Below, in pieces: positions 4,919 through 54,161 of a stretch of DNA of 64,000 nt. Origin of the DNA: Corallococcus macrosporus DSM 14697 (GTDB lineage: Bacteria > Myxococcota > Myxococcia > Myxococcales > Myxococcaceae); NCBI RefSeq assembly GCF_002305895.1, contig NZ_CP022203.1, positions 2,954,501 through 3,018,500 on the forward strand. Direction: 5' to 3'. Position numbers and translations under genes: made by a program. The notes beneath the pieces were generated by a model, which searched no databases, was not told where the DNA came from, and saw nothing but the letters and a program-made list of their open reading frames with translations. Each line of letters begins with the position of its first letter. The stretch's first letter is position 1.

Positions 4919-4928
4919 GTCGCTTGAG

Positions 4929-5062
4929 TCGCCGCCCCGGGGCGTCCGCTGGTTCAGCGGGGGCCGGGGCGGGCTCGGGCCGGGCGGCGCCTGATTCGCC
5001 GCCCCGATGCGTCCGCTGGTTCAGCGGAGGCCGGGGCGGGCTCGGGGCCGGGCGGAGCCGGG
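4929..5062. repeat. Two-copy 67-bp tandem repeat with internal palindrome
   Basis: Two adjacent copies (4929-4995 and 4996-5062), differing at only a few bases, fill the space between the convergent ends of pcnB and dinB. Each copy contains a perfect hairpin CCGCTG-GTT-CAGCGG followed by a GC-rich tract. It may act as a bidirectional terminator; there is no T-tract. Confidence 0.8.
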
Positions 5063-5064
5063 CC

Positions 5065-6273
5065 TCAGGACTTGGGGCCGCCCTTGTCCACCGGACGCTC
5101 GGAGCGGTGCTCCGCGCTGTCCGTCGCCTCACTGCCGGCGATGTCCGCGGTGGTGATGGCCTTGCTGCCGAACCGCTCCGCGATCTTGTCCAGCGCCGCG
5201 TTCAGCTTCGCGGTGCGCGGCGCCGCGGCGGGGAACAGGCCGAGCTGCGGCTGCTCCTCGTCCAACTGCACGCTGACGCCGGTGAGCCGCAGCGGCTTGC
5301 CCTGGTGCGCCTTCTCCATCAGCTCCAGCGCCGCGCGATAGAGCGTCTGCCCGTCATCCGTGGCCTCGCGCAGCGTGGTCCGCCGGGTGATGAGCGTGAA
5401 GTCCGCGAACTTCAGCTTGAGCTGCACCACGCGGCCCTTCAGCGCCGCCCGCCGCAGCCGCCGGGCCACGCGCAGGGCCTGGGCGTGCACGTGCGGCTTG
5501 AGCGCGTCCATGCCCACGAGGTCCTCGTCGAACGTGTCCTCCGCGCCCACGCTCTTGGCCGCCCGGTCCGGCACCACCTCGCGCGTGTCGATGCCCTGGG
5601 ACAGCTCCCACAGGTGCCGCCCGCTGGAGCCCAGCCTGTCCTCCAGCCAGTCCAACTCCCGGGCCGCCACGTCGCCAATCGTCTTCAGCCCGGCGAGCCT
5701 CAGGGCCTCCTCCGTCTTCGGCCCCACCCCCCACAGGCGCGACACCGGCAGGCCCGCGAGGAAGGCCACCGTCTCCTCAGCCCGCACCTCCCGCTGGCCG
5801 TTGGGCTTGGCGAGGTCGGAGGCAATCTTCGCCACGAACTTCACCGTGGCCACGCCCGCGGAGGAGGGCAGGCCCAGCTCGTCGGCAATCTCCTTGCGGA
5901 TGCGCCGGGCGATGTCCGCGGGCGTGCCGAAGAGGCCCACCGAGGCCGTCACGTCGAGGAAGGCTTCGTCCAGGGACAGCGGCTCGATGAGCGGCGTGTA
6001 GCGCTCGAAGATGGCGAAGACGTGCTCGCTGGCCTCGGCATACGCGGAGAAGCGGGGCTTCACGACGAGCGCATGGGGCGCGGCCTTCATCGCCCGCGCC
6101 ATGGGCATGGCGCTGCGCACCCCGAAGGGGCGCACCTCGTAGGAGGCGGCGACCACCACGCCACGCTGGGCATGCCCGCCCACGATGAGCGGCTTGCCCC
6201 GCAGGGCCGGGTTGTCCCGCTGCTCTACGGATGCATAGAAGGCATCCATGTCCACATGGATGATGGCTCGCAT
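5065..6273 (-). CDS. dinB: DNA polymerase IV (Y family, DinB)
   Basis: Error-prone translesion polymerase. The 402-residue protein begins MRAIIHVDMDAFYASVE, with catalytic Asp8 in HVDMDAF, and carries SLDEAFLD at residues 100-107, with the Asp102-Glu103 catalytic pair. Palm, fingers, thumb (helix-hairpin-helix around LWGVGPKTEEAL) and a little-finger domain are all present, and length fits the family (about 350-410). ATG 6273 matches the canonical family start; an in-frame GTG at 6285 is an alternative. No beta-clamp QLSLF-like motif is obvious, although QPQLGLFP about 50 residues from the C-terminus is a plausible clamp-binding peptide. No LexA box was recognised upstream. The 5' end abuts a YjbQ remnant. 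Confidence 0.92.
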   Translation of the reverse strand: MRAIIHVDMDAFYASVEQRDNPALRGKPLIVGGHAQRGVVVAASYEVRPFGVRSAMPMARAMKAAPHALVVKPRFSAYAEASEHVFAIFERYTPLIEPLSLDEAFLDVTASVGLFGTPADIARRIRKEIADELGLPSSAGVATVKFVAKIASDLAKPNGQREVRAEETVAFLAGLPVSRLWGVGPKTEEALRLAGLKTIGDVAARELDWLEDRLGSSGRHLWELSQGIDTREVVPDRAAKSVGAEDTFDEDLVGMDALKPHVHAQALRVARRLRRAALKGRVVQLKLKFADFTLITRRTTLREATDDGQTLYRAALELMEKAHQGKPLRLTGVSVQLDEEQPQLGLFPAAAPRTAKLNAALDKIAERFGSKAITTADIAGSEATDSAEHRSERPVDKGGPKS

Positions 6274-6296
6274 GGTGTGAGTCACTTTAACGGGGC

Positions 6297-6506
6297 ACTC
6301 TGACGCCCGCCGGCCCCGACTACCGCCACCACCGCACGGGCGAGGACAACGGGGACGCCCACCTGAAGTCCTTGCTCGTCCACCACCAGGTCATCATCCC
6401 CGTCACCGCGGGGAAGCTCGACCTGGGGCCCTGGCAGCAGGTGTTCTACGCCGAGTTCGACGGCCAGCGCCGCAAGCGCGTCATCGTCAAGGTGATGGGC
6501 GCCTGG
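6297..6506 (+). pseudogene. 5'-truncated remnant of a YjbQ/UPF0047 family gene
   Basis: Reading from 6297 in the plus direction gives about 70 residues matching the C-terminal half of the UPF0047 (YjbQ, secondary thiamine-phosphate synthase) family: [11 protein letters not shown], then [33 protein letters not shown] and KRVIVKVMG. The frame is closed by a stop at 6288, just before the similarity starts, so the N-terminal half including any start codon is gone. Beyond VMG the frame runs into antisense of the pseudouridine synthase without the family's normal end. It is squeezed between the divergent starts/ends of dinB and the rlu gene, suggesting a deletion joined dinB to this fragment. Family similarity is from memory of the consensus. 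Confidence 0.72.
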
Positions 6507-6517
6507 CGGAAACCCCC

Positions 6518-7468
6518 TCAGCTCCGTTGCTCGCCGCGGGGCAGGGGGAGCCCGTGCCGCTCCAGCTCGGCGCGCAGCTCCGGTGGAAGGGGACTGTGGA
6601 CGGTCATGGCCCGCTTCGTCTGCGGATGCGTCAGGCCCAGGGAGCGGGCGTGCAGGAAGAAGCGGCCCAGCTCGGGGGCCTCGCGTCCGCCGTAGAGGCT
6701 GTCGCCGACGATGGGCGCGCCCACGCCCGCCAGGTGCGCGCGCACCTGGTGCAGCACGCCGGTGAGGATCTTCACCTCCACCACGCTGAACTCGCCGGAG
6801 CGGGACAGCACGGTGAACTTCGACACCGCCTCCCGGGCGTCCGCGGCGCCGGAGGGGGCGGGCTCCACGCGGTCCGGGTGGCGCGGGTGGTGGCGCAGCG
6901 GGAGGTCGATGTCGCCCTCGTCCGCCAGCGGCCCCGTCACCAACGCCAGGTAGCGCTTGTCCACGGCGCGGCCGCCAAAGGCCTCGCGCACGGCGTTCCA
7001 CGCGTCCCGCGTCCTGGCGGCCACGACGACGCCGGAGGTCTCCACGTCCAGGCGGTGGCACAGGCCGCCCTCGCGCGCGTCCACGGAGGCCTGGGCGCAC
7101 TCGGGATAGCGGGCCACCAGCGCGTTGGCCACCGTGCCCGTCTCCCCGGACTGCAGGGGGTGGGACGGCCGGCCCGCGGGCTTGTCCACGAAGACGAGCG
7201 AGTCGTCCTCGTGCAGCACGGTGAGCGGGAAGTCCGCGTCGGGCACGGCCTCGCGCGACTCCTCCTCCACCTCCACGGCGATGTGCTGCCCGGCGGTGAG
7301 CGTGAGGCCCTTCTTCGCGGGGCGGCCGTTCACCTTCACGGCGCCGGCCTCGAACAGGCGCTTGAGGCGCGCGCGGGACAGGCCCAGCGCTTCACCGACG
7401 AAGAGGTCCACCCGCTGGCCCGCCTTGTCGGCGTCCACGGTGAGGGTGTGCAGCTTGGAGGGGTTCAC
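6518..7468 (-). CDS. RluA/RluD-type RNA pseudouridine synthase
   Basis: Converts specific uridines in rRNA or tRNA to pseudouridine. An N-terminal S4 RNA-binding domain (about residues 18-68, [19 protein letters not shown]) is followed by the synthase domain with the HRLD motif, catalytic Asp141 in [12 protein letters not shown], and the RluA-family blocks VFVDKPAG and [22 protein letters not shown]. 316 residues, normal for RluD-like enzymes. The GTG start overlaps the stop of the upstream kinase by 4 bases, so the two are probably translated from one mRNA. Which RNA position it modifies cannot be told from the sequence. Confidence 0.9.
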
Positions 7469-8604
7469 TCGGACAGGGCCTCGTAGACTTCCTCGGCCGT
7501 CTGGAACCGGTCGTCCGGCTCCTTGCGGATGAGGCGGTGGGCGACGCGCGCGAGCTGCGGGTCCCCGTGAAGGTTCAGCGCCAGCACGGGGGGCGGCTCC
7601 GTCTCCAGCACCTGGCGCCAGAGCTCGTGCGGCGTCTTCGCGTCGAAGGGGGGCCGCCCGCTGAGCAGCTCATAGAGGATGACCCCCAGGCTGTACAGGT
7701 CGGAGCGTCCGTCCAGCGGCTCGCCCAGAATCTGCTCCGGCGCCATGTAGCGGTAGGTGCCCACCAGCTTGCCGGCCTCGGTGATGGCCGCGTCGTCCGC
7801 CAGGAACTTGGCGAGCCCGAAGTCCATCAGCCGTACCTGCCGGTCATCGTCCACCATGATGTTGGACGGCTTGAGGTCGCGGTGCACCAGGCCGTGGCCG
7901 TGGATGTAGGCCAGCGCCTCGCAAATCTGGAGCATGGCGTCCTTGAGACGTCCCATGCGCTCGGGCCGGTTGAGGTCCTCCGCGCGGAGGAGGCGGTCCG
8001 GCTCCTCGGGCGGCAGTGTGCGCGGCAGGGGAGGCACCAGGTCGAAGCCCTCCATCGAGTCATCCGAGCCGATGCCCGCGTGCGGGCTGAAGCCGGAGGC
8101 GAAGCTCTCCAGGTCCTCGCTGGGGGCCTCCTCCGCGAAGGCCTCCAGGCCGAAGGTGCCCTCGTGCGGGCTGGCGTCCGAGTCGTCCATGGAGTCGGAG
8201 AAGTCCCGGTTCAGGGGGCCGAAGTCATCATCCGCGGTCCGCAGGACGGAGAGGGGGCTGCGGGGCGTGTGGCTCCCCGGATGGGGGGGGCGCTCGCCGC
8301 TCCCCAGGTCCAGGTAGTGGCGGAGGGTGAGGCCCTCGATGAGCTCCATGGCCAGGTACGGCACGCCCTGGTGGACGCCGGACTCGAACACCTTCACGAC
8401 GTTGGGGTGAGACAGGTCCACGAGCGTGTCGAACTCGCGGGCGAGCCTCCGCGCGGCACGCGCATCCCGTGCGGGGCCCGCTGAAAGCAGCTTCAGCGCG
8501 ACCTCGTCAGTGGTGCGGCGGTCCAGGGCCCGGTACACGGTTCCTGCCCCGCCACTGCCAAGCGTCTCCAGAACGCGGTAGGGACCGATGACCTTCGGGG
8601 GCAT
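7465..8604 (-). CDS. Ser/Thr protein kinase with large insert in the catalytic domain
   Basis: Hanks-type kinase of 379 residues with no transmembrane segment. N-lobe: GSGGAG loop at 16-21, ATP-anchoring K38 in VALKLL, hinge AMELIEG at 85-91. C-lobe: [10 protein letters not shown] at 241-250 (Asp243), DFGLAK at 261-266, APEQ and an Arg-rich helical end. Between hinge and helix E (about residues 100-213) lies an acidic, Ser/Pro-rich insertion of about 110 residues that is absent from ordinary kinases. The ATG at 8604 is just before the conserved [10 protein letters not shown]. It diverges from another kinase at 8733 and is coupled (4-base overlap) to the downstream pseudouridine synthase. Confidence 0.9.
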
Positions 8605-8732
8605 GGGGTGCGGAAATCCTACGGACCACGTCGTGTCAGGGTCAACGCTGACAGCGCCTGATTGCTCGGCGCCCGGCAGAACGGGCGGCAAGCGGTTTTA
8701 CTTTTCCGACAAACCTGGGAGAACCGGAGTCA

Positions 8733-10898
8733 ATGCAAATCGGGAAGTACCAACTGGTGCGAAAGCTTGCGTCAGGCGGCATGGCCGAGGTCTTCCTGGC
8801 GAAGGCCGCGGGGCCACGCGGCTTCGAGAAGACGCTCGTGCTCAAGCGCATTCTTCCGCACCTGGCGGAGGACCCGGCCTTCGTGGAGATGTTCCTGGGC
8901 GAGGCGCGGCTGGCGGCGCAGCTCGAGCATCCGAACATCGTGCAGATTTTCGACTTCGGTGAGGCCGAGGGCAGCTTCTTCCTGGCCATGGAGTTCATCG
9001 ACGGGCCGAACCTGCGCAAGCTGGTGAAGCGGGCCCAGGAGGAGGCGCTGCCGACCGCCTTCTGCGCGAAGGTGGTGGCGGCCGCGGCGGAGGGCCTGGC
9101 GTACGCGCACGAGTTCCGCGACCCGGAGACGGGTGAGCCGCTGGGGTTGATTCACCGGGACGTGAGCCCGGACAACATCCTGGTGTCGCGACAGGGCGCG
9201 GTGAAGGTGGTGGATTTCGGCATCGCGAAGGTGGCGGGGCAGGGGCACCGGACGCTGACAGGCGTGGTGAAGGGCAAGGTGGCGTACATGCCGCCCGAGC
9301 AGCTCCAGGCCAGGGGCATGGACCGGCGGGTGGATGTCTACGCGCTGGGGGTGGTGCTGTATGAGCTGCTCACGGGGAAGCGTCCGTTCGACGCGACGAC
9401 GGACGTGAGCGTGATGCAGGCGATTCTGTTCGAATCATTCATCCCGGTGTCTCAGCGACGCCCCGATGTGCCGGCCGCGTTGCAGCAGGTCCTGGAACGG
9501 GCGCTCGCGAAGGAGCGGGAGCGACGCTACCCGGACTGTCGTGCGCTTCAGGACGACTTGGAGCGGTTCGTGCTGTCCACCGGCGAGCCAGTGGGCGCGT
9601 ATCAGATTGCCCAGCACATCGCGCAGTGGGTGCCGGAGGTGGCCGCGGTTCCGGCGACGACGCCGTCACAGGGCGCCAGCAAGGGGGCCGTGGCACCGCA
9701 GTCGAAGCCGGAAGGGCGTGTCCCGTTCAGCGCGCCTCCGGTGGAGGCGCCCGTGGATTCGACGTCACCGACGACGCCGATGCCCGGGTCGTTGGTCTCG
9801 CCGGTGGATTCGACGTCACCGACAACGCCCATGCCACGGGCCATCGCGGGGGTGGTGCAGGCGTTGGAGCCGCGTTCCACTCCAGAGCGGGACACACTTC
9901 AGTCGTATCCGGTGGTCGTGAAGGCGCCCTCGCGTCGGGCGGACGGCCCGGGGCGTGAGCCCCGGAGAACGCAGCGCGAGCGTGGGGCGCTCCGGCCGAG
10001 AGACATGGCCCGGGCTTCGAGGGCGGAGGAGCAGGCGCCGCATGCGCGCGACGACGCGGCGGTGGCGATGGCCGTTGCCTCCTCGCCGTCACCAGGGGGC
10101 CCTTCGCCGTCGCCCACGGCGCCCGTGGATGCGGAAGACGCGGTGCACACACGGAGCACGGAGTACGTCGCGACCGGGACTCCAAGGCCATCAGGGGGAC
10201 GGATTGCCGTCATCGTGGGGGCCGTGGTCGCGCTGTCGGTGGGGGGCGCCGTCACTTGGATGCGCGGTGATGATTCAGAGGGCACACCCGCTCAGGTGAG
10301 TCCACGGCCGCTCACGACGTCGCCGAGCGCTCCCGCGACGCCGAGCGCTCCCGCGACGCCGAGCCCAGGCGACAGGACCGTGCCGCACGCGCAAGCGGCC
10401 GCGGGCGAGACGGCGGAGGCCCAGGATTCGAGTGGCAAGGCCGCGCCGAAGCCGCAGGCCCCCGCGGACGTGCCTGTGGCGCCGCAGGTCGCGCGGGAGG
10501 TCGCCTCTCCTGAAGCGGAACCTCCTCAGGCGAAGGAGACGCTGCCTGGGAGTGGCGGAGCGGCTGCAAAGGAGGGGAATGCCGTCGTCGCGAAGCGTGA
10601 GCCCGTGAAGGCGCCTGGGAACCCGGAGCCGAAGCCGCCCCGGGCCCGTGAAAAGGCGCCGGTACAGAAAGTGGCGCCTGTTGCGAAGGGACGCTTGGAG
10701 TTCCGCGTTCGTCCGTATGCCGTGGTTTCGTTGGGCGGGAAGGTGCTGGGGCAAACGCCCTTCGCGGCGGTTGAGGTTCCCGCGGGGCGCCACACCGTTC
10801 GGCTCGTCAACAAGGAGCTGGGAAAGGACGTGACCCGCACGGTCGACGTGAAGGCGGGGCAGTCCAATGTGTTCAAGCTGAACCTTGAAATGGACTGA
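8733..10898 (+). CDS. Membrane Ser/Thr protein kinase with C-terminal PEGA domain
   Basis: Kinase domain at about residues 6-275: ASGGMAEV loop, K38 in [17 protein letters not shown] at 141-150, DFGIAK at 161-166, MPPEQ in place of APEQ. The catalytic loop has Ser where most kinases have Lys (HRDLKxxN). A long Pro/Thr/Ser-rich linker follows, including a 51-bp tandem duplication coding [11 protein letters not shown] twice (about 9754-9836) and an 18-bp repeat coding SAPATP (about 10325-10365). One transmembrane helix lies near residues 490-510, and a PEGA domain (about 653-721, LGQTPF...[11 protein letters not shown]) is predicted on the periplasmic side. 721 residues. Likely a sensor kinase; the ligand is unknown. 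Confidence 0.92.
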
Positions 10899-43893: not shown

Positions 43894-45534
43894 CTACTTC
43901 CGGCGGCGGTAGAGCAGGCCCGCGGCCAGCAGGGCCAGGGAGGCAGGGAGGAGGGTGGCGGTGGGCCCGGCGGCGCAACCTCCGCTGGACGCGCTCAGCC
44001 CGTCATCCGGGTCCTCCGGCGAGTCCGGCAGCCCCGGGCGGGGCGACGGCGAGCCCGTGTCCGGCGTGCCCGGGTCGGGCGTCTGCGGCTCCTCGCCAGG
44101 GGACTCCGCCTCGGCCACCTGGACGAGCGCGGTGGCCGTCTGCTTCACCGCGCCCTGGGTGGCGGTGGCCGTCACCGTGTACTGACCGGGGAGGGCGAAG
44201 ACGTGCTCCACCGCCTCGCCCTCGGCCGCGCCGCCGTCCCCGAAGTCCCAGGTCACCGCCGCGCCGGTCAGGGTCGGGGTGGCCCTGAAGAGGGCGCGGT
44301 GGGGGGCCACGCCGCGCTCACCCTCGACGACGAGCGCCAGCTCGCCCTCGGGGAGCGGCTCCTGGGGCGGCAGGTCCTTCTGCAGCGTGAAGCGGTCCGC
44401 GGTGGTGCCGTCATGGCCCATCAGCTCCGCGGTGAGCGTGCCGTCCACCACCGTCACGTCGAGGAAGCCGTAGGTCTGGTTGTCGCGGATGACGCTCCAG
44501 TCCGGCTTGCTGCCCGGGAGCTGCCGCAGCGTCGCGCCGCCGCCGCCCACCACGAGGTAGGGGATGCCCTGCTCGCCGTCCGCGGCGATGCCGTCACCCT
44601 TCATGGGCTTGCTGCGCTCGTAGTTGTGGTCATGCCCGGTGAGCACCAGGTCCACGCCGTACTTCTCCATGATGGGGCCGAAGTGGCGCCGCATGGAGAG
44701 CTGCGAGCCGTGCTCGCCGCTGGACCAGGGCGGGTGGTGGAAGAAGACAATCTTCCAGGGCTGCGTCGAGCCCGCGAGGTCCCGCTCCAGCCACGTCTTC
44801 TGCGCGTCGCGCGTGCAGCGGTCCGCCGACGCCAGGCCCACGGCGCAGTTGGAGTCGAGCGCCACGAAGTGCACATGGCCCCAGTCGAACGAGTAGTAGC
44901 GCTCGGTGCCTTCCGGGTTGTTGGAGGGCAGGTAGAGGTTGTCCAGGTAGGGCTGCCCCTGGTTCGTCACGTACTCATGGTTGCCCAGCGCCGCGAAGAA
45001 GGGCACCTGGGCCAGCAGGGCCTCCATGGGCACGAAGAGGTTGTTCTGGATCTCCGCCTCGGTCCCGTCGGCGTACGCGTTGTCCCCCAGCGCGACGAAC
45101 AGCTCCGCGTTCCGCTTCACCATGGCCGAGACGACCTTGCGCTGGTTCGAGCCGCCCGTGCCGAAGTCGCCCACCGTGATGAAGTGCACGCTGCGCGTCC
45201 CGGGCACGGGCGCGGTGCGGAAGCGGTTGAGCGGCGTGCGCAGGCCACAGGCCGACACCTCGTACGTGTACTCGGTGCCGGGCTTCAGGCCGGTCAGCAC
45301 CACCGCGTGCGCCTTCCCGCTGTCCTGGGAGACGGCGGACTGGTCGGCTGCCCCCTCGCCGTAACGCACCTCGGCCTGGCAGTTGGCCGCCAGCCGGAAC
45401 GCCACGGTCGCCGTGTCGGGGCCGACCTTCTGCAGGTAGGGGTCCCGGTACAGCGTGCCCGCGCTCGCGGTGCTGGCCAGCAGCGTCAGGGAGGCCGCCA
45501 GGGTGGCAAGGTGAAGGGGGGTCTTCCGGTGCAT
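43894..45534 (-). CDS. Secreted purple-acid-type metallophosphatase with PKD domain and MYXO-CTERM-like anchor
   Basis: 546 residues. Signal peptide, then a purple acid phosphatase N-terminal fibronectin-like domain (about 26-110, YRDPYLQKVGPDTATVAF), calcineurin-like phosphatase domain with the metal motifs VGDFGTG, GDNAYADG, GNHEY, FFHHPPW and GHDHNYER, a PKD domain (about 410-480, VTWDFGDG), a Pro/Asp/Ser-rich linker, and a tail GGCAAG, helix, YRRRK resembling the MYXO-CTERM anchor. Exported phosphatase that could release phosphate from extracellular esters. It follows the lipoprotein at 45664 by 129 bases on the same strand, at the end of the VTC/DUF4956 gene run. Confidence 0.85.
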   Translation of the reverse strand: MHRKTPLHLATLAASLTLLASTASAGTLYRDPYLQKVGPDTATVAFRLAANCQAEVRYGEGAADQSAVSQDSGKAHAVVLTGLKPGTEYTYEVSACGLRTPLNRFRTAPVPGTRSVHFITVGDFGTGGSNQRKVVSAMVKRNAELFVALGDNAYADGTEAEIQNNLFVPMEALLAQVPFFAALGNHEYVTNQGQPYLDNLYLPSNNPEGTERYYSFDWGHVHFVALDSNCAVGLASADRCTRDAQKTWLERDLAGSTQPWKIVFFHHPPWSSGEHGSQLSMRRHFGPIMEKYGVDLVLTGHDHNYERSKPMKGDGIAADGEQGIPYLVVGGGGATLRQLPGSKPDWSVIRDNQTYGFLDVTVVDGTLTAELMGHDGTTADRFTLQKDLPPQEPLPEGELALVVEGERGVAPHRALFRATPTLTGAAVTWDFGDGGAAEGEAVEHVFALPGQYTVTATATQGAVKQTATALVQVAEAESPGEEPQTPDPGTPDTGSPSPRPGLPDSPEDPDDGLSASSGGCAAGPTATLLPASLALLAAGLLYRRRK

Positions 45535-45663
45535 GGGGCCTCCTCCCGAACAAGCTCGGGGTAGAGGCGCAACCGTTCAACCGCTGACCTTCATCCTGCC
45601 CCCACCCGGAGTAGGAGGCGGCGGAGCGGGGCCCCGTGTCTCCGCCTCCCCTCCGGACAGGCT

Positions 45664-46449
45664 TCACGGCTTGATGTCGTACGAGGCCAGGTCCTCCGTG
45701 CGCTCCCCTTCCTCGCGCACCTTCCCGATGCCGGGAACGAGCCAGTAGAAGCGCGTCTTGTCCTGCTTCACCTCGCCGTTGTCGTTGACCTTGTCGCGCT
45801 GAATCTTGACCGCGTTGGTGAAGGTCCCGGCCTTCGTCGTCACCGTCACGCCCGTCTCGAGCACCTTCCAGATGTACGTCGGGCTCTTCTCGTCCCGGGA
45901 TCCGTCGCCCAGGATGATGTGCTCCAGCACGTCGCTCTTGTACGTCCAGGGCAGGGCGTCCGGAACGCGCGCCACGGACTTCACCGTGGCGGGGGACCAG
46001 GTGGTGGAGCGGACCTGCTGGCCGTCGCGGTGGTCGTCCTCGCGCAGGCGCACGACGAGCCCGTTGGTGAGCTCCACCTGCCACGAATACTCCTCGTAGA
46101 GGACGTTGTTGAGGACGCGGTCCTGGCGGCTGTGCACCTGGACGGCGTTGATGCCGGGCTGGCCGGGGACCTCGCCGGGGCCCACCACCGTCACCTGCTT
46201 CTGGAAGTTGCCCTCGACGGGGTCCTGGATGTCATAGACCCAGGTGCTGCCCGTGGTCAGCGGCCACAGCGTCTGCGTCCCCGTGGGCTCCTCCCCGTTG
46301 CCCTGTCCACCCGGGCCGCCCGGGTTCACGGGTTCTCCCGGCAGGCCTCCTCCAGGCGTGGGGTCCTGCGCATCACCCGCGGGCAGGCTGTTGCCGCCAC
46401 ACGCCACCAACCACCCCGCCGCGAACACGGCCACCCAGCTCCGCCTCAT
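45664..46449 (-). CDS. Lipoprotein, member of the VTC/DUF4956 gene run
   Basis: 261 residues; lipobox WLVAC, a Gly/Pro-rich spacer (about 20-55), then a domain starting LWPLTTGSTWVYDIQDP, a pattern seen in uncharacterised lipoproteins whose domains begin with a PL..GS.W.Y motif. No catalytic motif. GGAGGAGCGGGT ribosome site before ATG 46449. Its start overlaps the DUF4956 gene's stop by 4 bases. Possibly the outer-membrane or periplasmic component of that module. Confidence 0.65.
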   Translation of the reverse strand: MRRSWVAVFAAGWLVACGGNSLPAGDAQDPTPGGGLPGEPVNPGGPGGQGNGEEPTGTQTLWPLTTGSTWVYDIQDPVEGNFQKQVTVVGPGEVPGQPGINAVQVHSRQDRVLNNVLYEEYSWQVELTNGLVVRLREDDHRDGQQVRSTTWSPATVKSVARVPDALPWTYKSDVLEHIILGDGSRDEKSPTYIWKVLETGVTVTTKAGTFTNAVKIQRDKVNDNGEVKQDKTRFYWLVPGIGKVREEGERTEDLASYDIKP

Positions 46450-47153
46450 ACCCGCTCCTCCCGTGTGCTCTTCGGATTCACCGCCGTCCACCGCAAGCCG
46501 CGCAGGGCCGCCCCTTCCGTGCGGCCCAGGGCCGCGGCGAGGGAGCCCGGCTCCGGCTCCTCCACTTCCAGCTCCAGCCGCCGCCCGTCGAAGTCGAGCG
46601 CGCAGCTCTTCACCATGACGTTCCGCTCACCCAGCGCCCGGCGCAGCGTGGCCTCCGCGCCCACCAGGTCGTCCGACTGCGCGGACAGCACCAGCCGCTG
46701 CTTCACCGCGGCGGGCGCCTCCTCGCGGTTGAAGCAGTCCAGCACGAAGAGCAGGGCCATCACGAACAGCGTCCCGACGAAGGCCAGCCCCAGGCTGCCA
46801 TGTCCGCACGCCATGCCCAGGCCAATCATCAGGAAGAGGATGGCCGCGTCGCGCGGGTCCTTGAGGCCGGAGCGGAAGCGCACGAAGCCGCCCAGGCCCA
46901 CCAGCCCGAAGGCCTTCGCCAGGCTGTCGCCGATGACGGCGGTGATGACCGCCGCCGCCGCGCACAGCAGCACCTGGGCCTGAATCATGTCCGCCTTGGG
47001 CAGCGCGCGCTTCATGAGCAGGCGCCAGGGCCGCAGCGAGAGCAGCGTGCCGATGAGCGCCGCGGCCAGCATCCGCGGAAGTATCGCGGTGATGGACAGC
47101 GCGCTGAACTCCGCCTTCGCGCCTTCGAACAGCGCCGAGAATGGGGCGTCCAT
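46446..47153 (-). CDS. DUF4956-type membrane protein
   Basis: 235 residues with about four to five helices (30-140), including ITAVIGDSLAKAFGLVGLGGFVRFRSGLKDPRD, here cited only by position (about 75-105), which is the family's conserved block, followed by LGLAFVGTLFVMALLFVLD and a soluble C-terminal alpha/beta domain (about 150-235). DUF4956 proteins often occur beside VTC-type polyphosphate polymerase domains and CotH kinases. Here the VTC gene is two genes upstream. A transport or regulatory role in polyphosphate synthesis is an inference. The stop overlaps the next start. Confidence 0.75.
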   Translation of the reverse strand: MDAPFSALFEGAKAEFSALSITAILPRMLAAALIGTLLSLRPWRLLMKRALPKADMIQAQVLLCAAAAVITAVIGDSLAKAFGLVGLGGFVRFRSGLKDPRDAAILFLMIGLGMACGHGSLGLAFVGTLFVMALLFVLDCFNREEAPAAVKQRLVLSAQSDDLVGAEATLRRALGERNVMVKSCALDFDGRRLELEVEEPEPGSLAAALGRTEGAALRGLRWTAVNPKSTREERV

Positions 47154-47162
47154 GGTTGGAAC

Positions 47163-48863
47163 CTAGACCTCCACCCGGGCCGTGGCGTCCACGCGGACCG
47201 CGCGCCCGGGCTGCGGCGCGAGCGTCCGGGCCGTGGCGACCACGGCATAGGCATTGCGCAGCACCGGCAGCCGGTCCGGATGCTCCGCCAGGACGCGCTC
47301 GACGAGCGCTTGCGCATGCGGCCCCAGGGGCAGCCCCTTCAGGGAGGACACCGCGGTGGTGGGCCACCGGCCCAGGTGCTCCACGCGCAGCTTCCAGGCC
47401 CGCGTGACATCCATGCCATCCACCGAGTCCAGGGCCTCCTTCGTCAGCGGCGCGCCGCGCTCGCGCAGGGCCCAGGCCTCCTCGGTGTCCAGCCCCGTCA
47501 GCGAGCGGAGCACCAGCTTCAGGGCCTTGCCCGCCAGGGCCTCCCGCAGCCCGCGAGCCACCGCCGTGTCCAGGCCCAGGGTGCTGCGCAGCACCGCGAG
47601 CCGGTCGTGGGGCAGCAGCACCTCGCGCAGCGCGTCCGCCCGGGCGCCCGGGACGCCGGTGAGGCTGCGCGCCACCTCCGCGAACAGCTTGCGCTGCATG
47701 CCCGCCTCGCGCACCACCCAGGACTCCTCGCAGTCCTGACCGGCGAGCCCGGCCAGGACCTCGGCGAGCCGCCCGTCCCGCATCGCGCGCTCACGCAGGG
47801 CCCAGGCCGGGGCCGAGCCGTCATGCCTGAGGCTCGCCAGCACCTCCGCCGGGGCCTGCGCGTACAGCCGCTGGCGCAGCATGGCCGCGCGCGAGTCCGT
47901 GCGGCCCGTGAGGCTGAAGGCCACCTCGGCCGGCGCCAGGTCCGCCAGCACCTCCCGCAGGTCCATGGCCGGCGCGTCGTCCAGGCCCGCCATGCCGCGC
48001 GCCGTGAGGCCCGGGAAGCGCTCCGCGAAGGCCAGTCGCTGCTGGTGCGCGGGCAGGCCCGGCACGCCGCTCAGCATCCACACCGCCAGCGCCGGTTCGC
48101 GCTGCTCCACGGCGTCCAGCGTCTGGAAGAAGCGCTCCTCCACGTTCTGGAGGGTGGTGGGGCCCGCCGGACGGGGCCGGGCAGGGGCCGGGACGATTCG
48201 CTGCACCTGCTGCTCGCGGCCCTCCAGCCGGGCCACCACCGCGTCCACCAGCCGCTGCTCCAGCACGCGCAGCGGCACGTCGTTGTTCTCCAGGATGAGC
48301 CAGCGCTGCGGGTCCTTGCGCGCCATCTCCAGGAAGGACTCGCGCACCCGCACCGCCAGGCCGGCGCCGGCGAGCCCCTTCCGGCTGTCCCCGTCACTGA
48401 CGCGCTTGCTCTGGAGCTTGCCCAGGCGCTTGCGCAGCCGCGCCAGGTCCGGATCCACGTCCACCAGGATGACCAGGTCCGGCCACAGGCCCTGCGAGGC
48501 CAGCTCGCACGCGGGCCGCAGCTCCTCCATGGGCAGGCCGCGGCCGCCGCCGCTGAGCGCGAGCTGTGAATACAGGTAGCGGTCGGTGATGCACACCTCG
48601 CCCCGGGACAGCGCGGGCGCCACCACTTCATCCAACTGCTGGGCGTCCCGCGCCAGGTTGAGGAAGAACTCCGCGCGGGGCGACATCTCCATCAGCCGCG
48701 AGTCGCGCGTCAGCTCCCGGATGCGCCGCGCCGTGGGGGCTTTCAACTCGCCGCCCTCCCGGGCGTGCGACACCCGGTAGCCCAGCCGCTTCAGCTTCGC
48801 GGCCAGCAGGTTGGAGAGCGTCGTCTTGCCGCTGCCGTCAATGCCTTCAAAGTCGATGAACAC
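47163..48863 (-). CDS. Thymidylate-kinase-like protein fused to a helical repeat domain
   Basis: 566 residues. Residues 1-215 are a TMK-type P-loop kinase: FEGIDGSGKTT (Walker A, Lys13), CITDRYLYSQLAL (DRY motif), PDLVILVDVDPDLA. The normal TMK REPGGT segment is degenerate (AREGGELKAPT). Residues about 230-566 are Ala/Leu/Arg-rich repeats of roughly 30 residues with a recurring SLTGLDTEEAWALRE-type pattern, likely an alpha-solenoid. TMK is about 210 residues, so the extra 350 are unusual. Lies 6 bases after the VTC gene and 9 bases before the DUF4956 gene. May be a divergent nucleotide kinase rather than the cell's dTMP kinase. Confidence 0.82.
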   Translation of the reverse strand: MFIDFEGIDGSGKTTLSNLLAAKLKRLGYRVSHAREGGELKAPTARRIRELTRDSRLMEMSPRAEFFLNLARDAQQLDEVVAPALSRGEVCITDRYLYSQLALSGGGRGLPMEELRPACELASQGLWPDLVILVDVDPDLARLRKRLGKLQSKRVSDGDSRKGLAGAGLAVRVRESFLEMARKDPQRWLILENNDVPLRVLEQRLVDAVVARLEGREQQVQRIVPAPARPRPAGPTTLQNVEERFFQTLDAVEQREPALAVWMLSGVPGLPAHQQRLAFAERFPGLTARGMAGLDDAPAMDLREVLADLAPAEVAFSLTGRTDSRAAMLRQRLYAQAPAEVLASLRHDGSAPAWALRERAMRDGRLAEVLAGLAGQDCEESWVVREAGMQRKLFAEVARSLTGVPGARADALREVLLPHDRLAVLRSTLGLDTAVARGLREALAGKALKLVLRSLTGLDTEEAWALRERGAPLTKEALDSVDGMDVTRAWKLRVEHLGRWPTTAVSSLKGLPLGPHAQALVERVLAEHPDRLPVLRNAYAVVATARTLAPQPGRAVRVDATARVEV

Positions 48864-48869
48864 TGTGCC

Positions 48870-49583
48870 CTATCCCCCTGCGACGCCATCCGCGGCGAAA
48901 GCGTGGACCTTCGCCATTCCCTCTGCGAACTTGCTGTAGGCCGGCCCTCCGCCCGGATTGAGCGACGCCAGCCACTCGGGCAATTCGTGCCCGAGGTGCT
49001 TCACCTCCACCACCACTCGCGGCTCCACCCACTGCGCGGGCTCCAGCCGCTCCACCGACAGCGCAAGCTGTGACAGCGCCTGCTCCGGCGCAATCCGGTG
49101 GTAGCGAATGTCGCGATCCACCGTCACCCGCCACGCCTGCGAGGACTGGTACACGTGGCGCGTGTACGTCACCGCCAGCACCGGGCTGAGGCTGCCACCC
49201 GCGATGAGCGGCAGCAGGCTGGCGCCGCCGCGCAGCACGCGGCCCAGGTCGGAGCGCGGCACCCACACCCGGCGCTTCTGCGTGAGGCCGCGCCGCTCCC
49301 GCTTCACCTCCAGCACCACGCGCGGCGCGCCGCCCGCGCCCAGGTCGGGCGCGTACTCCTTCGTCCGGACCTTGAGACAGTCGTCCGGCGTGCGCATGGC
49401 CCGCGCCGCCAGCGGACCACCCGGCCGGTCGAAGTAGACGGACACGATGCGCGTGGGAGGGGGCAGGTGCCCCTCCAGCTCCAGCGTGAGGCGCGTGCCC
49501 AGCGCCGCCGCCGTCTTCTCTGCCAGCACCAGCTTGAATTCCCGCCGGAGCTTGGTGACTTCTCCTTCCGCGAAGGACAGCAT
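48870..49583 (-). CDS. VTC-domain (polyphosphate polymerase-like) protein
   Basis: 237 residues of the VTC superfamily, whose yeast member Vtc4 makes polyphosphate from ATP. Basic and acidic tunnel residues are conserved: RREFKLVL (13-20), SVYFD (48-52), LKVRTKEY (70-77; K71, R73, K75), VVLEVKRE (89-96; E92, K94), QKRRVW (102-107), TYTRHVYQ (139-146), WRVTVDRDIRYHR (151-163), VVVEVKHLG (190-198; E193, K195) and the terminal SKF (217-219). This is the soluble catalytic domain alone with no transmembrane helix. It sits in the gene run porin, VTC, kinase, DUF4956, lipoprotein, phosphatase. Confidence 0.88.
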   Translation of the reverse strand: MLSFAEGEVTKLRREFKLVLAEKTAAALGTRLTLELEGHLPPPTRIVSVYFDRPGGPLAARAMRTPDDCLKVRTKEYAPDLGAGGAPRVVLEVKRERRGLTQKRRVWVPRSDLGRVLRGGASLLPLIAGGSLSPVLAVTYTRHVYQSSQAWRVTVDRDIRYHRIAPEQALSQLALSVERLEPAQWVEPRVVVEVKHLGHELPEWLASLNPGGGPAYSKFAEGMAKVHAFAADGVAGG

Positions 49584-49599
49584 CGTTGAGTCTCCGTGC

Positions 49600-50910
49600 C
49601 TAGAAGCGTGCGCCAAGTTCGATGGAGTGCTGCAGGCCCGGGAACTCGTCGCCAGGCCGCAGCGCGCGCTCCGTCTGGAGCTGGGCCCGGAAGCGGGTTC
49701 CGAGCAGCACGTTGAAGCCGCCCACCAGCGAGTGTCCGTCTCCTCGCACCGTGTCACCGCGAAGCTGCAGGGCCTCCACGCCCGCCACGGGCTGGATGGC
49801 CCACTCGTCACCCACGTGGATGAGGTACTGGGCCAGCAGCATCTGCGCCGTGAAGGGGCCCATGGGCAGCCGGCCGGAGATGGCCTCGCCGGTGATGACG
49901 AAGCCCGCGAGCTTCAGCTCCGCGTCCGCCGCCACCGCGTGCTTGCGCGCCAGGTCCATTGCTTCGGACACGTAGGTGCTGACGCCCACGGTGAGCGGCT
50001 TGAAGTTGAAGGGCCGCACGCTCACGCGCGCCGCGGCGTCCTCCTTCAGCCGGGCCCCCGCCTCATCGACGGCGCCCTGGAAGAACCCGGCGGAGATCTT
50101 GAGCTTCCAGACGTTCTTCAGCCGGACTTCACCCATCAAACCCATGCGGCGGCCGCCCATCTGATGGGTCTCCGTGATGTACTCCTCCACCAGGCCGCGG
50201 GACTGGATGGGCAGATCCCACGACGACTCCAGGGAGCGCTGGAGGAAGGGCGTCTTGAACTGGCCGCCGTAGAGGCGGAAGCGCTTGTTGTCATCCGCCA
50301 GGCGCACGAAGGCGTCCTTGAGCATCTGCGAGTCCGCCAGGTCCGCCGTCACCTCCGCTTCCAGGTTGGCCAGCGACGTGCTCACGCCCACGCGCGCGTC
50401 GGCGATGGACAGCCGGCGCTGGAACTGGTTGCGCTCGTCGGCGCGGGCCCGCGCGGATACGCGGCCGATGACGCGGATGGTCTGCACCTCGCTCTTGGGC
50501 TTGTCGTCGAGGGCGTCCGGGTTCTCGCCCAGCGAGTCATCCTGGGGCTGTCCGGGCCGCTGCTGCTGCTGGCGCTTCTCCGCGTCCCGCCGCTCCTTCT
50601 CCGCGTCAGCCTCACCGGGGAGGGGATTCACGGATGGCGGCTGCGCCCCAGGCGCCGCCGGAGGCGGCAGCGCCTGGGCCATGGCACCCTCGAGCGACGA
50701 CGACGCGGCGTCGTCCTCCTCCGGAAGCAGCAGCTCGGGAGGCTCCACCCCGTCCACCACGCCGCCTGACAGCAGGTCATCCTCCGCCTGCGTGGCGCGT
50801 TCCTCCGTCCGCGGGCCAGTCGTGCCGGCATTCACGGACGCCGGAATGCCCAGCAAGATTGCGACGAGCAGGCCTCGCCTCGTCCGTTCATCCACCCGCC
50901 ACCCACCCAT
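49600..50910 (-). CDS. Porin-like outer membrane protein (phosphate-selective type possible)
   Basis: 436 residues from ATG 50910 (GGAGGC ribosome site 8-9 bases upstream; GTG 50916 is an alternative). Signal peptide RRGLLVAILLGIPASVNA, a charged Glu/Gln-rich, Pro-containing stretch (about 25-135), then about 300 residues of amphipathic strands with FKTPFLQRSLESSW, KLKISAGFFQGAV and C-terminal LQHSIELGARF ending in Phe, as in OprP/OprO-type porins. First gene of the VTC run, 16 bases before the VTC gene. Phosphate selectivity is inferred only from context and shape. Confidence 0.7.
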   Translation of the reverse strand: MGGWRVDERTRRGLLVAILLGIPASVNAGTTGPRTEERATQAEDDLLSGGVVDGVEPPELLLPEEDDAASSSLEGAMAQALPPPAAPGAQPPSVNPLPGEADAEKERRDAEKRQQQQRPGQPQDDSLGENPDALDDKPKSEVQTIRVIGRVSARARADERNQFQRRLSIADARVGVSTSLANLEAEVTADLADSQMLKDAFVRLADDNKRFRLYGGQFKTPFLQRSLESSWDLPIQSRGLVEEYITETHQMGGRRMGLMGEVRLKNVWKLKISAGFFQGAVDEAGARLKEDAAARVSVRPFNFKPLTVGVSTYVSEAMDLARKHAVAADAELKLAGFVITGEAISGRLPMGPFTAQMLLAQYLIHVGDEWAIQPVAGVEALQLRGDTVRGDGHSLVGGFNVLLGTRFRAQLQTERALRPGDEFPGLQHSIELGARF

Positions 50911-51064
50911 GTCCACGCCTCCCCGACCGCCACCTGCTGCGCGTCCACTGCAACACGGGTGCCCGTTCGATGAGCGGACGTGGAGGGCTGGGGGAGGTCC
51001 GGTTCCGGACGGATGGAGGGCCTGACGGTGTAGAAAACGTGTGACCCGGCCGTCACGTTGCCGT

Positions 51065-51090
51065 GACAGGGAACGAAAGTTCCCACTGTC
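51065..51090. terminator. GAAA-tetraloop hairpin upstream of the porin gene
   Basis: Stem GGGAAC-GAAA-GTTCCC extended by GACA/TGTC with a one-base bulge, between the stop of the 51133 gene and the start of the porin gene. A second dyad, GTCACG-TTGC-CGTGAC, lies just before it (about 51051-51066). Likely terminator or operator. Confidence 0.55.
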
Positions 51091-51132: not shown

Positions 51133-51822
51133 TTACTGCCTGGACGGCGGATCCGACGGCGGGGTGGGGTCCGCGCCCAGGCCCGGCGGCGCGGGCGCCT
51201 CCGGTGGGGTTGGGGGCGCCGCCGTGGGGAGCTCCCCCGTGGATCCGGACGCCTTCACGCGCCGCAGCACGTTGCGCAGGCCCAGGAACAGCGCCGTGCC
51301 CGCGCCCACGAGAATCAAGCCCCAGCCCATGCCTCGGGGAAGGGGCGTGCTCGCCACGGCGAAGCGCGCGGTGATCACCTTGAGATGGGTGTTGCGGTAC
51401 CTCACCTCCAGGTCCCACGGCCCGGGCGTGTCCGGGGTGAACTCGGTGTGCCAGTTGACCCCGTCCCGCGTCAGCGTTTTCGTTTGCTGGGAGGGAGCGC
51501 CAGTGGGATGGAAGGTGAGGGTGAGCGGCCCGTCGAACTCGGGACCCTCGAAGGTGCCTACATGCAACGACACGGAGATGGGCTCTCCCTCGCGAGGCAT
51601 GGCGGGGTGGAGGGTGCCCTGGAGGCGCTCCTCGGCGTCCGCCCAGCGCAGCTCGAGGACGTCTCCGCGCCGTTCAATGCGAATCTGATCGTTCGCTGGG
51701 GCCGCAACCGTGGTAGTTGCAACCAGGAGGCCGGCGAGCAGTGCCCAGCCGGACTTCGAAACCGGCCGCCTTTGCCTCTGACGCGGCTGTCCTCTAAGAT
51801 GCGCTGCCCTGCTGCATTCCAC
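51133..51822 (-). CDS. Exported protein with C-terminal membrane helix, uncharacterised
   Basis: About 229 residues from GTG 51822; ATG 51870 would overlap the divergent kinase start. Signal peptide (WALLAGLLVATTTVA) is followed by a beta-rich domain of about 120 residues (RLQGTLHPAMPREGEP, VSLHVGTFEGPEFDGPLTL, GPWDLEVRYRNTHLK) like an exported FixG/CopC-type or Ig-like fold, then a transmembrane helix (MGWGLILVGAGTALFLG) and a Pro-rich tail. No motif identifies it. Only about 30 bases separate it from the kinase at 51855, so the two share a divergent promoter region. Confidence 0.6.
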   Translation of the reverse strand: MECSRAAHLRGQPRQRQRRPVSKSGWALLAGLLVATTTVAAPANDQIRIERRGDVLELRWADAEERLQGTLHPAMPREGEPISVSLHVGTFEGPEFDGPLTLTFHPTGAPSQQTKTLTRDGVNWHTEFTPDTPGPWDLEVRYRNTHLKVITARFAVASTPLPRGMGWGLILVGAGTALFLGLRNVLRRVKASGSTGELPTAAPPTPPEAPAPPGLGADPTPPSDPPSRQ

Positions 51823-51854
51823 CTGAGCCTGCTCCCCGCCGGCAATGTCCCGGG

Positions 51855-54161
51855 ATGAACCCTCAATCATTCGGGAAATATCAGCTTCTTAAGAAGCTCG
51901 CCACGGGCGGCATGGCCGAAGTCTGGCTGGCGCGCCAGACGGGCATCGAGGGGTTCCACAAGAACCTCGTGGTGAAGCGCATCCTCCCGCACCTCGCGGA
52001 AGACCGTGAGTTCGTGGAGATGTTCCGGAACGAGGCGCTGATCGCCGCGCGCTTCAACCACCCGAACATCGCCCAGGTCTACGAGTTCGGCGAGGCCAAC
52101 GGCACCTATTACATCGCCATGGAGTTCATCCACGGCGAGGACCTGGGCCGGGTGATGCGCAAGGCGGCCAGCACGGGCCAGTGGGTGGCCCGGCCGCTGG
52201 CCATCCGCATCGTGGCCGCCGCGTGCGAGGGCCTGTTCTATGCCCACAGCCGCACGGACGACGCGGGCCGGCCCCTGCGCGTGGTGCACCGCGACATCTC
52301 GCCGCAGAACATCCTGATCAGCTTCGACGGCTCGGTGAAGCTGGTGGACTTCGGCATCGCCAAGGCGGCGGATCAGGCGTCGCTCACGAAGTCCGGCGCC
52401 ATCAAGGGCAAGTTCGCGTACATGGCCCCGGAGCAGGCCGCCGGCAAGCCGCTGGACGGGCGCGCGGACATCTTCGCCATCGGCCTGGTGCTCTACGAGC
52501 TGCTCACGGGCGTGCGTCCGTTGAAGCGGGACTCGGAGCTGGCCACGCTGCAGGCCGCCATGGAGTGCGCCATCGCCGCGCCTTCTCAGGTGGCGGACGT
52601 GCCGGAAGAGATGGATCCGGTGGTGATGCGGGCCATCGCGAAGAACGCGGACGACCGCTACCGGGACGCGCGCCAGTTCCAGATGTCGCTGGAGGAGATC
52701 CTCGTCGGGCAGCGCTGGGTGGCGGGCTCGGTGCAGATCTCCGAGCTGATGGAGACGCTCTTCGCCGAGCGCCTGGCCGAGGAGAAGGCCCAGGGGCAGG
52801 TGGTGCCCGTGGGAGAGGACTCCGCGAACTCCGGCACGCCCATGCCGCCCACGCCTCCGCCGCAGGAGCGGGGCCGCAGCCGCACCTCCGCCGCGGCGGA
52901 CATGAACTGGGAGGCGCCTCCGGGCGAGGCCTCGGTGCGCGAGCGCCCGCGGGGCTCGTCTCCCTCCCGCACGTCCATGGCGCCCCGGCGCACCTCGGCC
53001 GCCGTGCCCGCGGTGGAGCCGGATGAGCAGGGGGAGTGGGAGGCGCCGTCCGGTATCGAAGAGGCCCCGCCGCGCCGGAGCCGGACGTCCGCGGAGCTGC
53101 GCCGCCCCTCCAACCCGAACTCCACGCAGATTGCGCGGACGAGCTCGCGGTCGGACCTGAGCCGGACGGGCGCGGGGGATTTGCCGCCGCCTCGCCGCAC
53201 CGCCACGCGCGCCGCGCCCATCGTCGAAGATCCGGGGCCGCCGCCTCCGTCCCGCTCGCGCGCGAGCATGGCGGCGGTGGATGAGCGCACCCGCATGGAG
53301 GACGAGGAGCTCGACGACGAGCGGACCATGCTGCCGCCGCCGGAGCCCGCGCCGCCTCCGCGCCGTCGCACGGGGATTCAGTCCGGCATCCACCCCGCCG
53401 AGGCCCCGCCGCGCCGCCGCACGTCGAGCCGCGCGGAGATGCCGAACGCGCCGCCGCGTTCACGCACGTCGAGCGTGGCCCTGGCCCGCTCGCGCGCCGA
53501 GGACGCCGAGGTGGACCGCGCGCTGGAGAAGTCCGCGCGGAGCGCGCGCGCGGGCAATGCCAGGCGCAACATCGCCACGGTGGGCTTCATCGTGGGCCTG
53601 GTGGCCGTGGGCCTGGTGTTCCACAAGCCCATCCTCGCGGTGCTCAACAGCCGCGCGTCCGACGGGCAGTCGGTGACGCTGTCGGTCAACACCAATGAAA
53701 AGGTGAAGGTCTCGGTGCGGCACACCGAGCGCTGCGGCAGCCCGCAGCCGGTGACGGAGCTGGGCGAGACGCCCATCGTCAACGCGTCGGGCGTCCACCT
53801 CCAGGACACGCTCATCCTGGTGAATGAGCAGCAGGGCATCTACAAGGAGGAGAGTGAAACGCTCGCCTTCGGTGAGCCCGGTCAGGCCAAGTCCTACACC
53901 TACGAGTTCCGCCGGGGCCAGCTCCAGCTCACCCTGAAGCCGGACGGCCTGCGCGGCATCTCCGTGAAGCGCAACGGCCAGGACATGGGCACCTACCTGG
54001 GCAACAACAAGGGCATGGGCATGAAGATCGAGCTCATGGAGGGGCGCCACAAGCTGGAGCTGCAGGGCGGCCCGCTGAAGGAGCCCTTCATGTTCGAGGT
54101 CGACATCAAGCCCGGCCTCATCAACAAGCAGACCGAGGACCTGTCCGCCTTCGTGGGCTAG
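51855..54161 (+). CDS. Membrane Ser/Thr protein kinase with RTS-rich linker
   Basis: 768 residues. Kinase domain (about 8-280): ATGGMAEVWLA loop, VVKRILPHL with the ATP Lys, HRDISPQNILI (Ser in place of the usual Lys), DFGIAK, MAPEQ. A disordered linker (about 310-570) contains at least ten short motifs of the form R-x-R-T/S-S (RSRTSA, PRRTSA, RRRTSS and similar) among Pro and acidic stretches. A transmembrane helix (about 575-597) precedes a periplasmic beta domain (about 600-768) without a recognised family. Paralogous to the kinases at 8733 and 62017 (shared [10 protein letters not shown]). Convergent with a rhodanese gene. Confidence 0.9.
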   Translation: MNPQSFGKYQLLKKLATGGMAEVWLARQTGIEGFHKNLVVKRILPHLAEDREFVEMFRNEALIAARFNHPNIAQVYEFGEANGTYYIAMEFIHGEDLGRVMRKAASTGQWVARPLAIRIVAAACEGLFYAHSRTDDAGRPLRVVHRDISPQNILISFDGSVKLVDFGIAKAADQASLTKSGAIKGKFAYMAPEQAAGKPLDGRADIFAIGLVLYELLTGVRPLKRDSELATLQAAMECAIAAPSQVADVPEEMDPVVMRAIAKNADDRYRDARQFQMSLEEILVGQRWVAGSVQISELMETLFAERLAEEKAQGQVVPVGEDSANSGTPMPPTPPPQERGRSRTSAAADMNWEAPPGEASVRERPRGSSPSRTSMAPRRTSAAVPAVEPDEQGEWEAPSGIEEAPPRRSRTSAELRRPSNPNSTQIARTSSRSDLSRTGAGDLPPPRRTATRAAPIVEDPGPPPPSRSRASMAAVDERTRMEDEELDDERTMLPPPEPAPPPRRRTGIQSGIHPAEAPPRRRTSSRAEMPNAPPRSRTSSVALARSRAEDAEVDRALEKSARSARAGNARRNIATVGFIVGLVAVGLVFHKPILAVLNSRASDGQSVTLSVNTNEKVKVSVRHTERCGSPQPVTELGETPIVNASGVHLQDTLILVNEQQGIYKEESETLAFGEPGQAKSYTYEFRRGQLQLTLKPDGLRGISVKRNGQDMGTYLGNNKGMGMKIELMEGRHKLELQGGPLKEPFMFEVDIKPGLINKQTEDLSAFVG

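Follow-up and report, generated by a model that had tools for sequence, protein, structure and literature searches.

A putative sigma-54-controlled phosphate and polyphosphate gene cluster with a thymidylate kinase fusion protein in Corallococcus macrosporus DSM 14697

Introduction

The yeast VTC complex, whose catalytic subunit Vtc4 is a tunnel enzyme with charged tunnel residues and a catalytic lysine at position 458, is inactivated by mutating residues R264, R266 and E426 (PMC9911596). Many tunnel enzymes are phosphatases, and those of the AtTTM3 tripolyphosphatase type possess an acidic patch formed by Glu-2, Glu-4, Glu-90 and Glu-171, which is absent from Vtc4 (PMC4641920). Bacterial VTC proteins are widespread, and no tested function for them was found in the literature searched. 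Genes for CotH, a polyphosphate polymerase and a DUF4956 protein adjoin the pel operons of Gram-positive bacteria (PMC7112168). Here, we describe a run of genes in Corallococcus macrosporus DSM 14697, coding for a porin, a VTC-domain protein, a thymidylate kinase (TMK) fusion protein (TMKf), a DUF4956 membrane protein, a lipoprotein and a phosphatase. It lies in a stretch of 64,000 nucleotides (C1:2954501-3018500, hereafter the window) of the 8,973,512-base single-contig genome. We think that it probably represents a sigma-54-controlled module, which spans the cell envelope and serves phosphate capture and polyphosphate formation.

As in the bacterial CotH-VTC-DUF4956 clusters, VTC and DUF4956 are encoded together in the window, and the operon is a variant of the already known VTC-DUF4956 gene sets. 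It differs from these in that CotH is missing from the cluster and that a porin, the TMK fusion, a lipoprotein and a sigma-54 promoter motif are added. The window VTC protein shares with the yeast VTC complex the tunnel fold, as judged by profile, the charged tunnel residues and an equivalent of the catalytic Lys458. In contrast to the yeast proteins, it consists of the VTC domain only, with no SPX domain and no fused membrane domain. Instead, a separate gene for a membrane protein, either DUF4956 or a Na/Pi cotransporter, adjoins the VTC gene.

Results and discussion

The gene run is conserved in at least three families

The six genes are all located on the minus strand and are separated by 16, 6, 9, -4 and 129 bases (Table 1), and their coordinates confirm both the strand and the gaps reported in an initial annotation made from the DNA sequence alone. 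The porin most likely starts with the ATG at position 50910, which is preceded by GGGGAGG seven bases ahead. To look at conservation, a VTC profile was searched across the phylum and the regions around the matches were compared. The order porin-VTC-TMKf-DUF4956-lipoprotein recurs in many genera of the family of the window genome (f1), and in most f1 loci the phosphatase gene and an RsmB gene come next after this core. The porin-VTC-TMKf-DUF4956 portion is kept in two further myxobacterial families (f2 and f3), in which the identity of TMKf drops to about 50% while the gene order is unchanged. Since this arrangement is shared by many genera, which belong to no fewer than three families, the gene run is not due to chance. 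We regard the module as real, of old origin and coherent. The restriction of synteny to close relatives, which the initial annotation had named as the outcome that would speak against it, was thus not observed.

The C-terminal domain of TMKf is present in 75 of the 193 searched genomes of the phylum, all in the same order (one further weak match was discounted), and had no match in 50 foreign genomes in a search run without a positive control. Among 97 copies of TMKf, 89 have a Pfam VTC match at a distance of at most 2.04 kb (median 757 bases). With their own profiles, VTC genes were also recovered in genomes G072, G036 and G081, raising the number of TMKf copies that adjoin a VTC gene to 92; the apparent occurrence of TMKf without VTC in these three genomes was therefore rejected as Pfam false negatives. 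Two of the remaining five copies lie at contig ends (G073 and G188), one belongs to a genome with a second VTC gene on another contig that lacks TMKf (G121), one has no assigned VTC (G166, contig C7) and one is a lone TMKf (G119). This lone fusion gene (L163, positions 7109-9223; family f9) is found beside an RsmB gene, and VTC, porin and DUF4956 genes are absent from the locus.

Table 1. Position of the genes, domains and upstream elements in the window
Feature	Position	Strand	Evidence
Outer-membrane porin, Porin_O_P-like, 436 amino acids	49600..50910	-	16 of 24 relatives match PF07396
VTC-domain protein, likely polyphosphate-polymerase-type tunnel enzyme, 237 amino acids	48870..49583	-	PF09359, E 4e-16; yeast Vtc4 (3g3q) with the family profile, E 1.9e-19
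TMK fusion protein (TMKf), 566 amino acids, GTG start	47163..48863	-	PF02223 (Thymidylate_kin), E 9e-26; TIGR00041 above cut-off; AlphaFold mean predicted local distance difference test (pLDDT) 91
Kinase part of TMKf (residues 1-213), of TMK fold but with a changed acceptor pocket	48225..48863	-	VIA-align Z 26 to 3uwo; pocket comparison
TMKf alpha-solenoid, residues 241-548, about ten repeats of 27-28 amino acids, nine of them with a single invariant Arg	47220..48143	-	
DUF4956 inner-membrane protein, helical membrane part and C-terminal ACT-like domain	46446..47153	-	PF16316, E 6e-11; weak MgtC, E 1e-3; AlphaFold mean pLDDT 73; ACT-domain matches
Lipoprotein, DUF3108-like (weak similarity), 261 amino acids, lipobox LVAC	45664..46449	-	homologous genes in the main clusters and in most of the distant ones
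Exported purple-acid-phosphatase-like protein, PKD domain, MYXO-CTERM-like tail; neighbour, not core	43894..45534	-	Metallophos, E 4e-17; five metal-motif patterns
Predicted sigma-54 (-24/-12) promoter, GGCAC-CCGTG-TTGCA	50949..50963	-	sole perfect GGCACN5TTGCW match in 64 kb
Inverted repeat GGGAACtttcGTTCCC, candidate activator (enhancer-binding protein, EBP) site, putative role	51069..51084	.	about 110 bp upstream of the promoter

The VTC protein is likely a polyphosphate polymerase

The VTC domain of the window protein scores 59.6 bits against a cut-off of 23, and the family profile matches the catalytic Vtc4 far better than Vtc2 (E 1.5e-10) or Vtc3 (E 6e-9 to 1.4e-8). In the alignment, Vtc4 residues K200, R264, R266, Y268, E279, K281, K294 and R296 correspond to K17, R73, K75, Y77, E92, K94, K103 and R105 of the window protein, with an arginine to lysine change at the R266 position, and Y359, R361, R373, E426, K428, S457 and K458 correspond to Y140, R142, R152, E193, K195, S217 and K218. 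Residues E15, Y50, D52, R73, Y77, E92, K94, R142, R152, D156, E193, K195 and K218 are invariant in all 35 aligned VTC proteins. The VTC domain with charged tunnel residues, as initially annotated, is hence confirmed by Pfam and by the alignment to Vtc4.

Judged by position, three of the four sites of the tripolyphosphatase acidic patch were mapped with confidence in the window protein. Two are occupied by R13 and K195, as in Vtc4, and the third by E15, which is phosphatase-like. Because R13 and K195 resemble Vtc4 but E15 resembles the phosphatases, the sequence makes a polyphosphate polymerase the likely, though not certain, function of the protein. Alternatively, the protein could be a tripolyphosphatase or another triphosphate hydrolase, in which case the module would not make polyphosphate but would recover phosphate from polyphosphate and nucleotides outside the cell or in the periplasm. 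The prevalence of phosphatases among tunnel enzymes (PMC4641920), the invariance of E15 and the exported phosphatase that often adjoins the cluster in f1 and f2 are in line with such a hydrolase. However, R13 (Vtc4 R196), K195 (K428) and K218 (the catalytic K458) are kept, the first two of which are replaced by Glu in phosphatases, and the best profile match is the catalytic Vtc4. We therefore regard a hydrolase as unlikely and favour a polymerase.

The porin and distant versions of the cluster point to phosphate

Two further lines of evidence, Porin_O_P matches and Na/Pi cotransporters, link the cluster to phosphate independently of the VTC name. Like the phosphate porins OprO and OprP, which are of the Porin_O_P type, the majority of the relatives of the window porin match PF07396 (Table 1), with E values of up to 1 and a best value of 5.7e-14. 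The window porin itself, in contrast, scores 14.6 bits and is below the cut-off of 20.9 bits, and a profile search against solved structures with the porin yielded no homologue.

TMKf was also found in 9 of 377 further genomes in searches around other centres. In six of the nine distant loci (L200, L201, L202, L216, L218 and L220), a Na_Pi_cotrans (PF02690) protein of 660-710 amino acids is encoded directly after VTC (E 3e-15 to 1e-25), and TMKf and usually also the porin and the lipoprotein are part of the same run. DUF4956 was not found in these six loci. No 16S sequence was recovered from any of the distant TMKf carriers, and the only other sampled genome to yield one looked Bacteroidota-like, which may reflect contamination. 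In a locus of the Myxococcota, L002, VTC and DUF4956 genes are followed by a NaPi-profile match on the 3' side. At the level of sequence, the phosphate direction of the module is well supported. As a separate observation, locus L219 (positions 3743-7020) contains a CotH-DUF4956 gene pair convergent to porin-TMKf-lipoprotein genes, and no VTC was found there.

The phosphatase carries all five metal-motif patterns of purple acid phosphatases and a MYXO-CTERM tail that scores near the cut-off. Its gene is a frequent neighbour, on the same strand in f1 and divergent in f2, and was not found in the paralogous clusters described below or in the distant clusters. It had initially been counted as part of the module; its presence at the f1 and f2 loci stands, but it is an associated neighbour and not a core component. 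A hairpin between the lipoprotein and phosphatase genes is not more stable than shuffled sequences (z -1.2), and a terminator is thus unsupported at this position.

In the AlphaFold model, the DUF4956 protein has around five helices long enough to span a membrane, and its C-terminal domain is ACT-like, with weak ACT-domain-like matches. This C-terminal domain is missing in f2 and f3. The MgtC match is below the cut-off, and a profile search against solved structures with DUF4956 returned nothing. DUF4956 is the proposed membrane partner of VTC.

TMKf has lost the thymine pocket and gained an arginine-ladder solenoid

The fold matches of the TMKf model cover the kinase part only, and residues 1-213 match the Pseudomonas aeruginosa Tmk with a VIA-align Z of 26. 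TMKf has the fold, the P-loop and the DR motif in common with thymidylate kinase, but it lacks the thymine-binding residues, has a longer and more basic LID and carries an additional C-terminal solenoid. In a comparison of 25 TMKf and four distant copies with 30 canonical TMKs of the Myxococcota, four pocket positions were considered, which we take to be the thymine contacts seen in Tmk structures. The canonical enzymes have Phe in 28 of 30 sequences (Tyr in the other two) and Arg, Tyr and Gln in 30 of 30 each, whereas TMKf has N/Y, D/E, L/H and S/A/T/G at these positions and the canonical residues are gone in 29 of 29. The P-loop Lys and the DR motif are retained, as is a new LID motif of the SRKGLAGAG type, and the net charge of the LID is +7.1, compared to +2.4 in canonical TMKs. 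A separate TMK gene is present elsewhere in the same genome. Judging from these sequences, TMKf is very probably an active kinase with an acceptor other than dTMP.

The same data bear on the idea that TMKf is a genuine dTMP kinase, either the main or a backup enzyme, and that the operon supplies nucleotides. TMKf scores above the TIGR00041 dTMP-kinase cut-off and has a Walker-A Lys, which is replaced by Thr or His in 28 of the 30 canonical Myxococcota TMKs, including that of the window genome. On the other hand, the thymine-contacting residues are lost throughout, the TMKf gene is associated with those for porin and VTC, and most of the 193 searched genomes of the phylum have no TMKf. Since genomes outside the TMKf range still carry the Thr-type TMK, this enzyme must work, and a dTMP kinase role for TMKf is very improbable. 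The absence of the Walker-A lysine from canonical Myxococcota TMKs (24 of the 30 have Thr and 4 have His; GxDGxGTTTQ), observed in L032 (genome C1:4005856-4006419) and L167-L195, is itself unexpected, as the enzyme should be essential.

In the solenoid, position 7 of the repeat is an Arg with 99% conservation when nine repeats from 25 sequences are compared, and the next best column reaches 84%. This arginine ladder may bind a polyanion or may be structural as in HEAT repeats. PPK2 kinases are, like TMKf, P-loop kinases with a TMK-like fold, and PPK2 and TMK share a P-loop ancestor (PMC8776046), which makes a polyphosphate-linked role of TMKf thinkable. However, TMKf has no match to the PPK2 profile PF03976 up to an E value of 0.1, and a real PPK2 is encoded elsewhere in the genome. 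One might speculate that TMKf is a polyphosphate-handling kinase, in which the nine-Arg solenoid would act as a rail that holds the chain leaving VTC, while the TMK domain with its basic LID would move phosphate between the chain and a nucleotide or another acceptor, so that both enzymes would form a coupled machine across the envelope. We consider this rather unlikely. In either case, TMKf would be a kinase that evolved from an essential nucleotide kinase and acquired an undescribed 27-residue arginine-ladder repeat.

A CotH-VTC-DUF4956 set was extended by TMKf

The larger genomes contain a second, paralogous cluster with the order CotH-VTC-porin-TMKf-DUF4956 (L055-L058, L060, L061 and L073), whose TMKf is around 40% identical. 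In f2, CotH and the phosphatase are both encoded next to the porin in divergent orientation (CotH in L051, L062, L161 and L162), and in f3 CotH is encoded downstream of DUF4956 (L052). In other Myxococcota (L069 and L070), CotH-type proteins are encoded between the porin and VTC. These CotH-like proteins (L069:4384-7254 and L070:4640-7450) are approximately 940-960 amino acids long, and in L069 the CotH match covers residues 127-332 only, with a beta-helix-like remainder. The main cluster is without CotH, and four CotH matches are found elsewhere in the genome, the nearest listed being about 180 kb away. CotH is indeed absent here, as initially noted, but the suggestion that the kinase fusion had taken its place is rejected, as CotH and TMKf co-occur in the paralogous cluster, f2 and f3. 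The same set in rearranged order indicates that TMKf joined a set of CotH, VTC and DUF4956 genes and is not a CotH substitute; loss of CotH from the main cluster is more likely.

Of 80 loci with a DUF4956 gene, almost all of which belong to other phyla, 65 contain VTC and 60 contain CotH-like genes, and no TMK gene, window-type porin or window-type lipoprotein was detected in flanks of up to 10 kb. These numbers, and the location of such genes next to pel operons, could also indicate that the module serves a polysaccharide or matrix of the cell surface. VTC and DUF4956, joined elsewhere by CotH, would then regulate or decorate an exported polymer, and phosphate acquisition would be secondary. 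As the main clusters examined contain no identified polysaccharide gene, and as Na/Pi cotransporters and porins of the Porin_O_P type occur, we judge a polysaccharide module to be quite improbable and prefer a role in phosphate metabolism.

Several other arrangements were also seen. DUF4956-CotH-like clusters, mostly with VTC, occur in Pelagibacteraceae (L108, L113, L125, L132, L136, L138 and L142), which is unexpected in such small genomes. In L044, L045, L071 and L072, VTC-DUF4956 clusters are followed by an HlyD-like gene and an outer-membrane efflux protein (OEP) gene, suggesting that a product is exported. A family of PPDK_N proteins (phosphoenolpyruvate synthase ATP-binding), about 675-830 amino acids long, is encoded next to VTC, DUF4956, CotH or TMKf genes (L045:8820-10850, L070:21-2042, L203:3453-5948 and L217:4279-6309), and the members in L045 and L070 have lipoprotein-like N-termini.

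A model for phosphate capture and polyphosphate synthesis

The initial annotation had proposed a trans-envelope module for phosphate and polyphosphate, and this direction is supported by the Vtc4-like tunnel, the Porin_O_P matches and the Na+/Pi cotransporters, whereas its details concerning CotH and the phosphatase did not hold. We propose that the porin passes phosphate, or possibly short polyphosphate, across the outer membrane. The VTC enzyme would act on the cytoplasmic side and transfer the gamma-phosphate of ATP to a growing polyphosphate chain. Synthesis could be coupled to the movement of phosphate across the inner membrane by a membrane partner, which would be DUF4956 in the window and the Na+/Pi cotransporter in the distant versions, and the lipoprotein might support the envelope part. 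TMKf would function as a P-loop kinase that does not use dTMP, most likely acting on a phosphate-rich acceptor or recycling nucleotides for the VTC reaction, with the arginine-ladder solenoid docking the kinase to the VTC/polyphosphate machinery.

Several points weigh against this model. At the position of Thr198 in Vtc4, the bacterial VTC proteins invariably carry Glu (E15), and polymerase activity has been biochemically proven for no bacterial VTC protein in the literature searched. The same genome already carries PPK1 and PPK2, genes for CotH, polyphosphate polymerase and DUF4956 adjoin pel operons in Gram-positive bacteria, and sigma-54 control alone is no pointer to phosphate. Since the cluster combines a phosphate-type porin with a sigma-54 promoter motif, a lineage-specific kinase and, in distant versions, a Na+/Pi cotransporter, and since its hosts are apparently close to the genetically tractable Myxococcus xanthus, the role of a bacterial VTC protein becomes directly testable.

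The operon is preceded by a sigma-54 promoter motif

A GGCAC-N5-TTGCA element, which the initial annotation had not noted, is located about 40 bases ahead of the porin ATG and is the single match in 64 kb, with 0.28 expected. The motif [GA]GGCA[CT]N5TTGCA was found upstream of 18 of the 18 main-cluster operons first examined, with at most two of 200 shuffles reaching the score in each, and also in L161, L162 and L165, so that families f1, f2 and f3 are covered; L042, L049 and L166, whose upstream DNA is absent from the data, are not part of the count. The paralogous clusters are without this motif, and a sigma-70 promoter scan gave no sigma-70-like site. As the -24/-12 element with its GG-N10-GC spacing is present, the operon is predicted to be transcribed from this promoter under the control of sigma-54.

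The inverted repeat GGGAACtttcGTTCCC further upstream may be an activator site. Its core, GGAACN4GTTCC, has a single match in the window and is kept in five of five aligned members of the genus; the repeat was not found in other genera. Upstream of the operon, the window also contains a gene for a protein of 245 amino acids (51133-51870) and a divergent Ser/Thr kinase gene (51855-54161), both of which are syntenic in most f1 loci.

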